From NCBI GenBank assembly GCA_900322135.1, contig ONYP01000010.1, positions 1 through 51,958 of the forward strand: a stretch of DNA of 51,958 nt, in the 5' to 3' direction. Shown piece after piece: positions 40,228 through 44,988 of this stretch (position 1 is the stretch's first letter; every line of letters starts with the position of its first letter). This stretch comes from an uncultured Prevotellaceae bacterium (GTDB taxonomy: Bacteria; Bacteroidota; Bacteroidia; Bacteroidales; Muribaculaceae). The translations under genes were made by a program, and so were the position numbers. A model generated the notes under the pieces. The model saw only the letters and a program-made list of their open reading frames with translations, was not told where the DNA came from and searched no databases.

Positions 40228-42171
40228 CTATTTCACACTATACTCCATCTCACGGTTGTACTCGCCATTGAAGATGGCTGTTAGCTGGTCACAGGTCTTG
40301 ATGGTCATGCCGATGTCGCGCTTCAGGTTTTTCTGGTGGCGCAGTCCCAGAAGCCACAACGGCAATGCGATGGGGAGCAGGGCGGCGATAACCGTTCCCA
40401 CATTCTTGATGGTAACGGGTTGATAGGTGAGCAGCTGGCGTATGACGGGAAAGTCCATTGCTTTGTTCAGCACCATCTGGTCCCTCGAGTTGGACAGGTA
40501 GTCCACCACCGAGTCCACATGCTCGGCAAGCGATTTGATGGCTGCTTTGTCATAACCCTGTTGCCAGTATTTCAGGTAACTCTGGCGTCCGGGGTAACGG
40601 TTGAGCAGTTCGGTGCAAGCGGTCTTCAGTCCATCGATGCGTGCCAATGCCACCTCGTCGACAACCTCGTCGATGATGACCTCTTTGGCCTCGAGTTTGC
40701 GTGTCTGGTGCAGGCCCGTAAATCGTCTCAGGAAGTTAAGCCAAGCATCGGGGTTGAAGACTGCCGAGTCGTTCACGGCCTTCTTCGTTAGGAAGATGCC
40801 CAGCGGCAGCAGCACAGCCGAACTGAGCCATATGCCTTGCCACACCGGCCACCTGCCGTCGCGCGCCAGTTTATACCCCATGTTGTCGATGATGTAGTAG
40901 ACGATGAACAACAGCACCGACACCACGATGGGCATTCCCAAGCCACCCTTGCGGATGATGGCTCCCAACGGTGCACCGATGAAGAAGAAAATCAGGCATG
41001 CCAGCGACAGCGTGAACTTCTTCATCAACTCTATCTGGTGTCGACGAATCACATAATTATCATCGTTGATACTGTAGCCCTGGAACTGCTGGTCCTGCAT
41101 TGTCATGGTCGTGCGCATGATGGCCTGATTAAGCAGTTGTTGCTGCTCAGTCGGCGGCAACTGCTTCATGATCTCGTCGATGTCGACGGGCTGGTCCACC
41201 TGTACCTCGTGGGAGCGCTCGTAGTGGACTTTTCCATCTTTTACCACCATGCGCTGTGACGGTACGCCACACACTGGAGTCGTCCGCATTTTGGACAATA
41301 CCTGTGTAGCGGCACTGTCAACCTTAATGCGCACCGAGTCGATAGTCTGGCGCAGTTCGGTGATATTCTTGCCCACATATTGCGAGCGCATCGTCTCGTC
41401 GTCCATGCGGGTGAAGTTGGCATCATAAGGTATCATGATTTCCTTGTCGTGGAAAGTCTCACGGCGGTAGAGTTCACCGCTCATGCCGCGCACGCCGCCT
41501 CCGCCCTTCATCTCTTCATACCATGACCCCTTGTATAGGGTCAGCACCAGGTGCCGCTTGTCCTCGGTCATCGACAGGCGTCCCGAGTCGGCAGCCACGA
41601 TGCGCGGATACATTGCAGCATTAGACACATCATATATCAGCACCCCGTGCAGCATGTCACGCTCCTTGTCCTTGCGCTTGACGAAGATGTTATAGCCGGG
41701 AATCTGGCTATAGACTGCACCCTCGGGGATGTCGAGTGTGGGAGAGGTCTGGCGCATCGAGAACAACAGAGTCCACATCTTCACCTGCGACTTGGGCAAC
41801 ACATTATTCTGGAAGAAAAAGGCTCCGATGGCAACGATTCCTATCAGCACAGCGAGCGGCTTCATGATGGTCGTCAGCGAGATACCCGACGACTTCAACG
41901 CCGTCAACTCGACATGCTCTCCCAAGTCGCCGAAGGTCATCAGCGCAGCCAGCAGGATACTCAACGGTAACGCCAGGGGCACCATCGACAGGGCGGCATA
42001 GAAGAAAAGTTCGGCAATCACATCCACACCCAGGCCTTTGCCCACAAGTTCATCGATGTAGCGCCACAGGAACTGCATCATCACAATAAACAGGCAGATA
42101 CAGAAAGTCATCAGGAACCTGGGCAGGAACCTGGACAGCATAAAAGTGTATAGCTTCTTTATTCTCAACAT
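40228..42171 (-). CDS. LptF/LptG-family lipopolysaccharide export permease
   Basis: A 647-residue inner-membrane protein of the YjgP/YjgQ family, the permease half of the LPS exporter. N-terminal membrane segments (about 15-35, 55-80, 100-120) surround MQFLWRYIDELVGKGL, a periplasmic strand-rich domain follows (about 130-330), and a second membrane cluster lies at about 390-490. A C-terminal cytoplasmic helical extension (about 500-600) and a last membrane segment near 615 are seen in Bacteroidales versions. The frame opens at 42237, but that part is the repeat; ATG 42171 (MLRIKKLY) is chosen because homology starts there and the promoter at 42197-42227 leaves a leader of about 19 nt. Confidence 0.9.
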   Translation of the reverse strand: MLRIKKLYTFMLSRFLPRFLMTFCICLFIVMMQFLWRYIDELVGKGLGVDVIAELFFYAALSMVPLALPLSILLAALMTFGDLGEHVELTALKSSGISLTTIMKPLAVLIGIVAIGAFFFQNNVLPKSQVKMWTLLFSMRQTSPTLDIPEGAVYSQIPGYNIFVKRKDKERDMLHGVLIYDVSNAAMYPRIVAADSGRLSMTEDKRHLVLTLYKGSWYEEMKGGGGVRGMSGELYRRETFHDKEIMIPYDANFTRMDDETMRSQYVGKNITELRQTIDSVRIKVDSAATQVLSKMRTTPVCGVPSQRMVVKDGKVHYERSHEVQVDQPVDIDEIMKQLPPTEQQQLLNQAIMRTTMTMQDQQFQGYSINDDNYVIRRHQIELMKKFTLSLACLIFFFIGAPLGAIIRKGGLGMPIVVSVLLFIVYYIIDNMGYKLARDGRWPVWQGIWLSSAVLLPLGIFLTKKAVNDSAVFNPDAWLNFLRRFTGLHQTRKLEAKEVIIDEVVDEVALARIDGLKTACTELLNRYPGRQSYLKYWQQGYDKAAIKSLAEHVDSVVDYLSNSRDQMVLNKAMDFPVIRQLLTYQPVTIKNVGTVIAALLPIALPLWLLGLRHQKNLKRDIGMTIKTCDQLTAIFNGEYNREMEYSVK

Positions 42172-42196
42172 CGCCTGATAATCGACTTGCAGCCTG

Positions 42197-42227
42197 CAAA
42201 GATAGTGCAAGCCGAACACAATGGCAA
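42197..42227 (-). promoter_or_regulatory. Promoter of LptF/G gene, formed with the repeat
   Basis: Minus strand: TTG (42227-42225) lies in the hairpin arm of repeat copy 1; after 20 nt comes TATCTTTG (42204-42197), a perfect -7 box at the repeat edge. Confidence 0.7.
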
Positions 42228-42271
42228 GAAAAAGCAATTTTTTCTTGCATTGTTGAGGCGCAGCCTATCTT
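42203..42271. repeat. Palindromic intergenic repeat, copy 1
   Basis: A 69-nt unit from TAGTGCAAGCCG to GCAGCCTATCTT. Its core is a hairpin GCAAGAAAAA (42224-42233) / TTTTTCTTGC (42239-42248) with loop GCAAT. It differs from copy 2 mainly by one missing C after the right arm. Confidence 0.9.
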
Positions 42272-42286
42272 CGGCAAAGCCAACGG

Positions 42287-42356
42287 TAGTGCAAGCCGAA
42301 CACAATGGCAAGAAAAAGCAATTTTTTCTTGCCATTGTTGAGGCGCAGCCTGTCTT
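42287..42356. repeat. Palindromic intergenic repeat, copy 2
   Basis: A 70-nt unit in direct orientation 84 nt after copy 1, identical over most of its length. The hairpin is complete: 15 perfect pairs, CAATGGCAAGAAAAA (42303-42317) / TTTTTCTTGCCATTG (42323-42337). Its left edge reads TACCGTTG on the minus strand, one base off a -7 box. Confidence 0.9.
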
Positions 42357-42431
42357 GCCCGATTGTCGCTGGCGCGCAGGTAAAAATTCAAAAAAATGGG
42401 TATTGTCACCTGATACAATCTGAAAAAGCAC

Positions 42432-42439
42432 TAATTTTG
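42432..42439 (+). promoter_or_regulatory. -7 box of the DUF5686 gene
   Basis: Perfect TAATTTTG. No clear TTG at 19-21 nt upstream (nearest is 26 nt). Transcription would begin about 42446, next to the GTG at 42448. Confidence 0.5.
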
Positions 42440-42447
42440 CACCCCGT

Positions 42448-44988
42448 GTGAAATCGTTCATGCTACATATTGCCCTGATTGTCGTCCTTGTCGCCCACGC
42501 TGTGGCGGCGGGGGCTCAAAATGATGCGCAGATCACTCAGGTGACGGGACTGGTACGCGACTCGTTATCGCATGAGGGCATTGCCCATGCCTCGATTGCC
42601 CTTGTCGGTACCAGCGAGGGTACATTGGCTGGAGAGACGGGCGGCTTCACCGTCAACTCACGCGCCTCGTTCTCGAGGCTGCGCGTGACGGCGCTGGGCT
42701 ATCGTCCTAAGGTGGTTGAAATAAAGCCTGGGCGCGGCAATGTGGTGGTTGTGGACCTGGTGGCCGAAGGAGTAGAACTCGACGAGGTCGTCGTGCGCCG
42801 TGGCAAGGAGCGTTACAGCAAGAAGAACAATCCTGCCGTGGAGATGGTCAAGCGGCTGCGTGAGCGTCGCGACGATGGTGATCCGCGACGGATGCCGCAT
42901 TACGGCTATTGCCGTTATGAACGGATGATGCTGGGCCTGGGCAACCTCGATGACCTGATCAGCAAACCCGAAGAGCAGCAATGGATTGAGCAATATGCCG
43001 ATACCTCGTTGCTCACGGGGCAGCGTGTGTTGCCCTTCTCCATCAAGGAGACCGTGGTGCGGGAATACTACGGCGGCGGCACGCACAAGCGGCTCATCAT
43101 GGGTACCAGCAGCGCCGGCATCGATGAGCACATCAATCAAGAAGGCATCAAGAAAGTGCTCGACGATTACATGGGCGATATTGACATTTTCCAGAACGAT
43201 GTGACTCTGCTGACCAACCGCTTCGTGAGCCCGTTGTCGCGCATTGCCGTGGACTTCTATAAATTCTATCTTAACGACACTGTCGTGGTCGACGGCGAGC
43301 GGTGCGCTGTGTTGAGTTTCGTGCCCTTCACGCCGCAGACTTTTGGCTTCCTGGGGCGACTGTATGTCTCGCTCGAGGACACCACCATGTTTATCAAGCG
43401 CGTGACGATGGGTGTTCCCCATGACATCAATCTGAACTATGTGGAGGCCATGAGCATCGTGCAGGACTTTGAGCGTGGACAGGGCGGAACCCGCCTCAAG
43501 GTGCGTGATGACATGGAAATCAGCCTCAGGCTCCTGCCTGGCTTGCCTGAGCTGTTCGCGCGGCGCGAGACATCCTACCGCGACCACAACTTTGAGCGTC
43601 CCGAGGGAGGCGTGTTTAATTTTCCTGAAGAGCAGCATGCCGCGGCCAGTGCCGCCTTCATGCCCGACGAGTTTTGGCTCGAATACCGTCCTGGCGGGAT
43701 GCGCACCACGGCAACCTCCTTGCAGGGGATGATGAAAAGGCTGCGCGGCTCCCGTCTGTTTTATTGGGCCGAGCAGGTGATTGTCGTTATCGTCAACGGC
43801 TATATCCCGACTGCCAAGGTGAGCCGTTTCGACATCGGCCCGCTGAATACCTTCATCAGCGGCAACTCGGTGGAGGGCTTGCGCCTGCGGCTGGGCGGCA
43901 TGACGACCGTCAACCTGAGCCGTCACTGGTTTGCCCGTGGCTATGTGGCCTACGGTTTCCGTGACAAGAAGTTCAAGTATATGGGCTCTCTGGAATACTC
44001 CTTCACACCCAAGAAGGCGATGGACCAGGAGTTTCCCGTCCACAGCATCAGGCTCACCCACCGCTATGATGTGGACAAGCTGGCCCAGCACTACCTGTAC
44101 ACCAATCAGGACAATGTCTTCCTCACGCTCAAGCGCCACAAGGATGTGAGGATGCAGTATCTGCGCACCACTCGCCTGGATTACCGCCACGAGTGGTATA
44201 ACCACTTCTCGCTGTCGTTGGGGCTGGAGCATAACATCCACGAGGCCACGCCGTGGGTGCCCTTTGTCCGCCCCGACAGCACCGCTTGCCGCCGTTACAC
44301 CCAGGCTGGCTTGACCGTACAGCTGCGCTTTGCCCCGGGCGAGACCTTCTACCAGACGCGCTCCTACCGCATTCCCATCAACATGGATGCGCCCATCATC
44401 ACGCTCAGCCAGACCTATATGCCCAAGGGCTTCATGGGCAGCCTGCACGAGTTGAACAAAACCGAACTGGGAATCCAGAAGCGTTTCTGGTTCTCGGCAT
44501 TCGGCTATGCCGATGTCATCCTCAAGGGCGAGAAAGTGTGGAGCCAGGTCGCCTATCCCGACCTGCTGTTGCCTAATGTGAACCTATCCTATACCATCCA
44601 GCCCGAGAGTTACTCGCTGATGAAGCCCATGGAATTTGTCAACGACCAGGCACTGTCGTGGGACCTGACTTACTGGGGCAACGGCGTGCTGATGAACCGC
44701 CTGCCGCTCATCAAGCGGCTTCGCCTGCGCGAGGTGCTCTCGTGGCGGGGCGTGTGGGGCAGCCTCAGCGACAAGAACAATCCCGCCAAGGGCGATCCCT
44801 CGCTGTTTGTCTTCCCCGCCGATGCCCTGTGCCAACCGATGGGAAGCAAACCCTATATGGAGGCGGGCGTGGGACTCGACAACATCTTTACTGTCCTGCG
44901 CGTGGACTATGTGTGGCGGCTCACCTACCGTGACCATGCCGGCACCGACCGTCACGGTATACGCATCCAGCTCCACTTCAATTTTTAA
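42448..44988 (+). CDS. DUF5686 outer-membrane protein with carboxypeptidase-like N domain
   Basis: An exported protein of 846 residues from GTG 42448, or 842 from ATG 42460. The GTG start would give the signal peptide its positive charge (MKSFMLHIALIVVLVAHA) but would be almost leaderless. After the signal comes a carboxypeptidase-regulatory-like domain (about 30-120: VTGLVRDSLSHEGIAHASIALVGTSEGTLAGETGGF, then LDEVVVR). The rest is the DUF5686 body, a strand-rich barrel-like region (for example LRLGGMTTVNLSRHWFARGYVAYGFRDKKFKYMGSLEYSF) ending LHFNF, an outer-membrane-type end. Such proteins resemble SusC-like proteins without a plug domain; function unknown. Confidence 0.85.
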   Translation: MKSFMLHIALIVVLVAHAVAAGAQNDAQITQVTGLVRDSLSHEGIAHASIALVGTSEGTLAGETGGFTVNSRASFSRLRVTALGYRPKVVEIKPGRGNVVVVDLVAEGVELDEVVVRRGKERYSKKNNPAVEMVKRLRERRDDGDPRRMPHYGYCRYERMMLGLGNLDDLISKPEEQQWIEQYADTSLLTGQRVLPFSIKETVVREYYGGGTHKRLIMGTSSAGIDEHINQEGIKKVLDDYMGDIDIFQNDVTLLTNRFVSPLSRIAVDFYKFYLNDTVVVDGERCAVLSFVPFTPQTFGFLGRLYVSLEDTTMFIKRVTMGVPHDINLNYVEAMSIVQDFERGQGGTRLKVRDDMEISLRLLPGLPELFARRETSYRDHNFERPEGGVFNFPEEQHAAASAAFMPDEFWLEYRPGGMRTTATSLQGMMKRLRGSRLFYWAEQVIVVIVNGYIPTAKVSRFDIGPLNTFISGNSVEGLRLRLGGMTTVNLSRHWFARGYVAYGFRDKKFKYMGSLEYSFTPKKAMDQEFPVHSIRLTHRYDVDKLAQHYLYTNQDNVFLTLKRHKDVRMQYLRTTRLDYRHEWYNHFSLSLGLEHNIHEATPWVPFVRPDSTACRRYTQAGLTVQLRFAPGETFYQTRSYRIPINMDAPIITLSQTYMPKGFMGSLHELNKTELGIQKRFWFSAFGYADVILKGEKVWSQVAYPDLLLPNVNLSYTIQPESYSLMKPMEFVNDQALSWDLTYWGNGVLMNRLPLIKRLRLREVLSWRGVWGSLSDKNNPAKGDPSLFVFPADALCQPMGSKPYMEAGVGLDNIFTVLRVDYVWRLTYRDHAGTDRHGIRIQLHFNF

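Follow-up and report, generated by a model that had tools for sequence, protein, structure and literature searches.

Correia elements (CREE) of Neisseria are the nearest known kind of repeat to the element described here, being likewise short, non-coding, dispersed inverted repeats. According to the available parts of one account, CREE are about 69 to 157 bp long, are often located at TA targets and may carry promoters at either end (PMC2649163). In the so-called Black promoter, the element contains the –35 and a portion of the –10, and insertion in certain places completes the –10; in one Neisseria strain, potential promoters of the Black type numbered 18 and those of the Snyder type 15, and 76 CREE were located 5' of genes (PMC2649163, same parts). 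The BrickBuilt MITE of Porphyromonas gingivalis, likewise from the Bacteroidales and likewise non-coding and intergenic, is described in the available text of PMC4596501 as having 19 copies in one strain, internal 23-nt tandem repeats and IS5-family-like terminal repeats, which include CCTTTGCA; its promoters are bidirectional, and promoter activity was observed by lacZ in E. coli. REP elements with TnpA-REP (RAYT) and the ends of IS200/IS605 are likewise short multicopy palindromes, and for IS608 target recognition depends on the transposon pairing with a target tetranucleotide, as outlined in the accessible sections of PMC6006769 and PMC5934647. For the host promoters of Bacteroidetes, the sigma-ABfr consensus consists of TAnnTTTG together with TTTG near –33 (PMC7366714, available part).

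From the analysis of a tandem repeat in an uncultured Prevotellaceae bacterium, we consider it probable that a short non-coding dispersed palindromic repeat, spread by copying, occupies core sigma-A promoters of host genes. No description of this element was found in searches of an open-access library, most subscription papers lying outside its coverage.

The tandem pair upstream of the LptF/G gene

The window, i.e. the whole stretch of DNA that was analysed (51,958 nucleotides of contig ONYP01000010.1, assembly GCA_900322135.1), contains a tandem with an 84-nt period at 42197–42356, in which two units share 52 nt at 96% identity. These are the two units before the LptF/G gene that had been noticed in a sequence-only reading of the window. 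The pair lies between the divergent LptF/G permease and DUF5686 genes, and the features of the region are as follows.

42191–42277, minus strand: gene-proximal element copy (copy 1), reading toward the LptF/G gene; covariance-model match, E 4.8e-20
42275–42362, minus strand: upstream tandem copy (copy 2), with TACCGTTG at the –7 position; covariance-model match, E 1.8e-17
42197–42204, minus strand: –7 box TATCTTTG of copy 1, read from the sequence and made by the right outer stem
42225–42227, minus strand: –33-region TTG of copy 1, in the 3' arm of the central hairpin, with a 20-nt spacer to the box
42218–42253, minus strand: central hairpin of copy 1, from the fold of the centre; its stem 42248–42224 is also a terminator-like site
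42302–42338, minus strand: central hairpin of copy 2, an inverted repeat with 16-nt perfect arms
42266–42273, plus strand: left outer stem of copy 1, reading TATCTTCG outward, 18 nt from a TTG
40228–42171, minus strand: LptF/LptG-family permease gene, downstream of the element; PF03739 (LptF_LptG), E 1.2e-72
42432–42439, plus strand: TAATTTTG box facing the divergent DUF5686 gene, read from the sequence, outside the element

It was found that copy 1 reads, on the minus strand, TTG at 42227–42225, 20 nt, TATCTTTG at 42204–42197, 25 nt and then the ATG at 42171. The promoter pattern toward the LptF/G gene, as claimed in the sequence-only reading, is therefore present, and the box of copy 1 probably drives LptF/G transcription. 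The –7 position of copy 2 differs from the box, which had also been claimed, and copy 2 may be a decayed duplicate promoter. The pattern TTG-N19-21-TAnnTTTG occurred 7 times in the window on both strands, copy 1 being one of these occurrences; the TAATTTTG box facing the DUF5686 gene was absent from this list. The tandem folded with a z of –5.74, and none of 200 shuffles was equally stable. Because of this fold and the recurrence of the unit at unlinked loci, the tandem unit was regarded as more than chance. The search of 41900–42700 against Rfam gave 10 matches at E ≤ 5, every one below the gathering score.

Dispersed copies and their gene-facing edge

By BLAST, the unit gave 57 matches in its own genome at E ≤ 1, and unlinked loci matched it with E-values as low as 1.1e-28. 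A covariance model (R1) made from 19 copies gave 89 matches in the same genome at E ≤ 1. Of these, 14 repeated listed copies, on the opposite strand or in the centre only, and one was weak (C55:8189–8281, E 0.41); without them the set comprised 74 copies, 65 at E ≤ 0.01. These numbers bore out the earlier claim of a dispersed repeat: the copies were neither few nor mainly in 3' regions, but lay just before start codons. In the congener G007, 75 model matches were obtained at E ≤ 0.01, a few of which were opposite-strand repeats.

The exact edge CGGCTTGCACTANNTTTG was found in 72 of 101 genomes of the genus (own genome included), in 3 of 294 other genomes of the order and in 0 of 394 other genomes of the phylum. 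The exact edge is thus genus-centred, and the spread over the wider named genomes is therefore patchy. A scan of named genomes gave at least 120 stretches matching the element edge; among the matches listed were Prevotella, Alistipes, Tannerella, Barnesiella, Muribaculaceae, Leyella stercorea and Hoylesella buccalis, together with one flavobacterium, which may be chance. The cultured Leyella stercorea strain DSM 18206 is among the carriers, its edge lying at L190. The suggestion in the sequence-only reading that similar units occur in Prevotella-like genomes fitted this result, as the edge was found in records titled Prevotella and other Bacteroidales among the matches listed. The search of plasmids for the element gave no match, that of phages gave 3 weak matches in unannotated faecal records, and IMG/VR contained 4 stretches with the exact edge.

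The element is an imperfect, non-coding palindrome of ∼75–90 nt. Read toward the gene, the unit measures ∼85 nt and consists of AAnnTAGGCnnCGCCTC, a variable self-complementary centre and TCGGCTTGCACTAnnTTTGC; the hairpin arm holds the TTG, and the outer stem terminates in CTAnnTTTG, which is the Bacteroidetes –7 box. The edges are conserved and roughly two-fold symmetric (GGCnnCGCCTC and CTCGGCTTGCA). The two halves of the centre were found to pair: the mean MFE of 71 distinct centres was –9.31 kcal/mol, compared with –3.83 kcal/mol after swapping halves between copies (lowest of 60 rounds, –4.33), and 43 of the 71 centres, taken singly, beat at least 95% of swaps. Compared with dinucleotide shuffles, the hairpin signal was modest (median z of –1.78, 54/122 below –2), and strong structure was more frequent than in control promoters from the same loci (median z of –0.39, 15/69 below –2).

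The outer arms were matched as well. In the named genomes, 61 of 73 copies showed complementarity between the left arm and the nn of TAnnTTTG, two positions that are free in the consensus, compared with a mean of 22 and a maximum of 31 in 2000 shuffles, in a test that rests on a plain pattern and a shuffling that ignores relatedness. These 73 copies remained from 124 sites after removal of 3 with short upstream DNA and 48 with an unrecognisable left edge. In the own genome, where 66 of the 74 copies had both edges, the 7-nt outer stem had a mean of 5.71 pairs versus 4.47 when shuffled, and the 29 copies without a box had 5.41 of 7 paired versus 3.78, in a test somewhat biased because the covariance model rewards pairing. 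On five of the own contigs (C121, C129, C89, C86 and C113), copies were observed in which the outer stem was unrelated to the –7 box and yet had 6–7 of 7 pairs; these are perhaps a non-promoter subfamily.

In the own genome, TAnnTTTG stood in register in 42 of the 55 gene-proximal copies and the remaining 13 had no box, R1 having been built mostly from boxed copies and so favouring their detection. None of the 19 upstream tandem copies scored had an in-register box. A TTG was located 19–20 nt from the box in 37 of the 42 boxed copies. By a simple greedy ORF call, a codirectional ORF lay at most 100 nt away in 35 of the 42, and an ATG-started frame lay within 130 nt in 41, one of these frames being only 10 codons long. 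In the named genomes, a codirectional ORF within 100 nt was found at 83 of 119 sites, compared with 134 of 621 random intergenic positions, 5 of the 124 sites having been left out with less than 300 nt downstream. We infer that selection retains the box mainly in the gene-adjacent copy.

Upstream of the murB copy on contig C77 of the own genome (L372), an unscored half copy, which lies outside the census and came from the scan upstream of the 55 gene-proximal copies, keeps TAAATTTG. Tandem upstream copies or half copies retaining TAnnTTTG were also seen in other genomes, at L147, L193, L373 and L382, the linker often being TTTGGATAA. At six other loci (L135, L143, L191, L210, L237 and L239), a different common sequence around CGGCTTGCACTAACTTTGC was observed, with no evident hairpin; this is apparently another repeated or conserved promoter-like unit.

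The sequence-only reading had proposed promoters directed outward from both edges. The gene-facing edge indeed carries TTG-N19/20-TAnnTTTG, but TAnnTTTG read outward from the left edge was found in 0 of 66 own-genome copies and 0 of 72 elsewhere, so that the second, opposite-facing promoter was unsupported; a separate TAATTTTG serves as the candidate box of the DUF5686 gene. At the level of sequence, these results demonstrated dispersal, a fixed register, a one-way TAnnTTTG edge and retention of the box in gene-proximal copies. Separately, the left edges of 11 of the 66 own copies read TAnnTTGY outward, resembling the alternative box that PMC9723704 (available text) reports for some of the promoters of a flavobacterium.

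The hairpins could instead be structural RNAs or terminators that end the transcript of the upstream gene, with their adjacency to promoters arising from short shared intergenic regions. This would suit the pairing of centre halves within each copy, the one terminator-like minus-strand site in copy 1 and the codirectional upstream gene found at 23 of 41 boxed copies of the own genome. However, at the other 18 of these 41, and elsewhere at 59 of 103 sites, the upstream gene was divergent. The region had no more terminator-like sites than its shuffles (1 versus a mean of 1.1), and the explanation would leave unaccounted for both the one-way nature of the right edge and the way it stays in register with the –7 box. 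Termination is not the general role of the element, given how common divergent upstream genes are, and we regard this explanation as unlikely. Of the interpretation first given to the tandem, dispersal and the gene-facing promoter edge thus held, and the opposite promoter and the block of read-through as a general role were given up.

Proteins encoded downstream were scanned for 30 of 41 genes, and 29 of the 30 scored higher than a Pfam cut-off. Among the proteins are enolase, an RNB-domain exonuclease, sigma-54, RbfA, pantoate ligase, a class II tRNA synthetase, MurB and peptide methionine sulfoxide reductase, and no common functional theme was evident among the 30. Leader RNAs were searched for at 18 loci, chosen mainly for a long distance to the next ORF, and two TPP aptamers and one tRNA were found. 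The TPP aptamers begin 11 nt (L099, own genome, 1403–1502) and 10 nt (L223, 6398–6496) past the –7 box of the element, with scores of 62.7 and 64.0 bits, respectively (gathering score, 54.3); L154, which looked TPP-like by eye, gave no match in this search. Because the start of a leader RNA has to precede the aptamer, the box of the element is well placed as a promoter, and the TPP positions would be an independent sign of the transcript start.

Orthologous promoters and relations among copies

Orthologous promoters of four genes were compared at 115 loci, with one genome per species and, outside enolase, with boxes counted by eye. For enolase, TTG-N19/20-TAnnTTTG was present in all 30 orthologues and the 5'UTR was recognisably similar in most; the model placed an element upstream of the box in 4 of the 30 (L282, L287, L288 and L296), and L295 and L302 look like element remnants. 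For rpoN, the element was present in 4/30 and a plain box in 26/26 element-free orthologues. For murB, 25 of 27 loci were used, two fragments of one genome being left out; the element was present in 9/25, and, one start not being found, 12 of the 15 element-free orthologues with a start had a box and 3 had none. For lptF/G, the element was present in 2/30, and the box in 21 of the 28 element-free orthologues, with none in 7; L068 resembles an element remnant. The box was intact in 18 of the 19 element-bearing orthologues, the exception being an rpoN locus (L370) that reads TATCTTTA. The box and the 5'UTR side are largely shared, and species start to differ upstream of the box; as judged from the orthologous sequences, the comparison demonstrated a change of sequence at this position.

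The distance from a conserved upstream enolase motif to the box was measured where the motif was found (it was missing from 11/30 loci, L296 among these). In the 16 genomes with no model match, the median was 118 nt, with 98–130 nt in 13 and longer distances in three (L302, 158 nt; L295, 207 nt; L283, 273 nt). In the three element-bearing genomes scored, it was 150, 227 and 267 nt, the longer distance in such genomes being expected from added DNA.

The presence of the element at orthologous promoters varied among congeners (2/30, 4/30, 4/30 and 9/25), and this bears on the idea that it is an operator, whose inverted repeats bind a regulator and regulate through promoter overlap, the copies being selected as a regulon. 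The conserved, roughly two-fold symmetric edges and the location on core promoters are what an operator might have. Nevertheless, besides the varying presence, the 30 scanned downstream proteins have no evident common theme and the central sequence is freely variable while its pairing persists, so that an operator seems decidedly improbable.

The similarity among copies did not simply follow the genes. The own enolase copy was 94% identical to the copy before a glycosyltransferase gene (C88) and 65% identical to the enolase copy of G007, which has a different hairpin type. For rpoN, the own genome and G007 share a hairpin type, and the orthologue of highest protein identity (91%) has another type, with AT as nn. 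The lptF/G copies of the own genome and G007 were 91% identical, about as alike as unlinked copies, and the mean best identity between copies was equal (0.88) within and between these two genomes. The murB copies of 9/25 congeners mostly have the same hairpin and look inherited. It follows from the lptF/G identity and these inherited-looking murB copies that not every copy is a recent arrival. The left arms of the murB copies vary with no matching change (2/9 fully paired, one with 1/7), which hints weakly that arm pairing is set on arrival.

That the copies are ancestral hairpin promoters, alike by common ancestry and by palindrome self-correction (quasi-palindrome template switching, which can keep palindrome arms matched) with no mobility, would agree with the shared murB hairpins but appears highly improbable, given that near-identical copies stand at unlinked genes while the enolase copies of G007 and the own genome are so different, and that the rpoN orthologue closest in protein identity has another hairpin type.

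Mode of spread and comparison with known systems

Most likely the element is a mobile, non-autonomous repeat that becomes established on core promoters and leaves these functional, its copies presumably arriving by transposition-like insertion. The 3' arm of the hairpin would supply the –33 TTG and the outer stem would end on the –7 box TAnnTTTG, so that the start point and 5'UTR of the gene would be kept while the upstream DNA differs. That such a promoter works we infer from the established TAnnTTTG/TTTG consensus (PMC7366714, available part).

As to how a mobile repeat would find core promoters, a tentative possibility, to which we give limited weight, is that the outer left arm acts as a DNA guide, a trans-acting single-strand transposition system pairing the arm with a resident –7 box (TAnnTTT). 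The hairpin would be inserted beside the resident box, and the repeat would be aimed at core promoters and would itself rebuild the –33 half. Guidance of this kind would explain the match between nn and the left arm in 61/73 copies, the self-complementary outer stems in the 29 copies without a box, and the differing hairpin types on the same box in different species.

Y1 transposase genes were matched in 92 of 101 genomes of the genus, and 31 Y1 loci (L247 of the own genome and 30 others, 96.7 kb) were searched for the element. One convincing match was found (L319, E 5e-9, ∼1.3 kb from the gene), together with a centre-only match (L320, ∼0.5 kb away, E 0.005) and a weak one (L330, E 0.82). As about two matches were expected from copy density, there was no enrichment at the 31 loci, and a Y1/RAYT transposase as the mover was unsupported. 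This result counts against the obvious candidate enzyme, not against pairing itself. The own Y1 locus (L247, C115:13497–13829) contains a lone IS200-like gene amid G+C-rich palindromes, of the CCAGGGG...CCCCTGG type by eye, and these are possibly a separate REP system.

If the proposed reading is true, the repeat spreads on core promoters themselves, and at little cost because both promoter halves are restored. It would then account for some of the promoter turnover in these bacteria, offer a simple motif to predict transcription starts in uncultured gut Bacteroidales and be a source of natural promoter parts; thanks to the matched arms, the way in which it spreads can be tested directly.

Among the known systems, REP elements differ in that the present element is unenriched at Y1 loci of the genus, and because of this we do not class it as derived from REP or IS200/IS605. 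A constant GTAG/GTGG foot was not seen in the left stems inspected, which had AAnnTAG and others instead, and a left stem shows GTAG only if its nn has G as the last base. Nevertheless, the arm/box complementarity found here resembles the way in which IS608 pairs with its target, as outlined in the accessible sections of PMC6006769 and PMC5934647. The resemblance of BrickBuilt to the hairpin core of the present element is by eye only, and the two are otherwise of different build. Relative to the sigma-ABfr promoters of the host, the arms of the element supply the same consensus (PMC7366714, available part), at the same spacing as in enolase promoters that carry no element. Like Correia elements and MITEs, it is a short non-coding dispersed element with terminal inverted repeats. 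It differs from CREE in its one-way TAnnTTTG edge, in having the box in most gene-proximal copies, in a centre that is unconserved in sequence and in a promoter of the Bacteroidetes type. The unusual feature of the present element is its promoter-embedded, arm-matched design.
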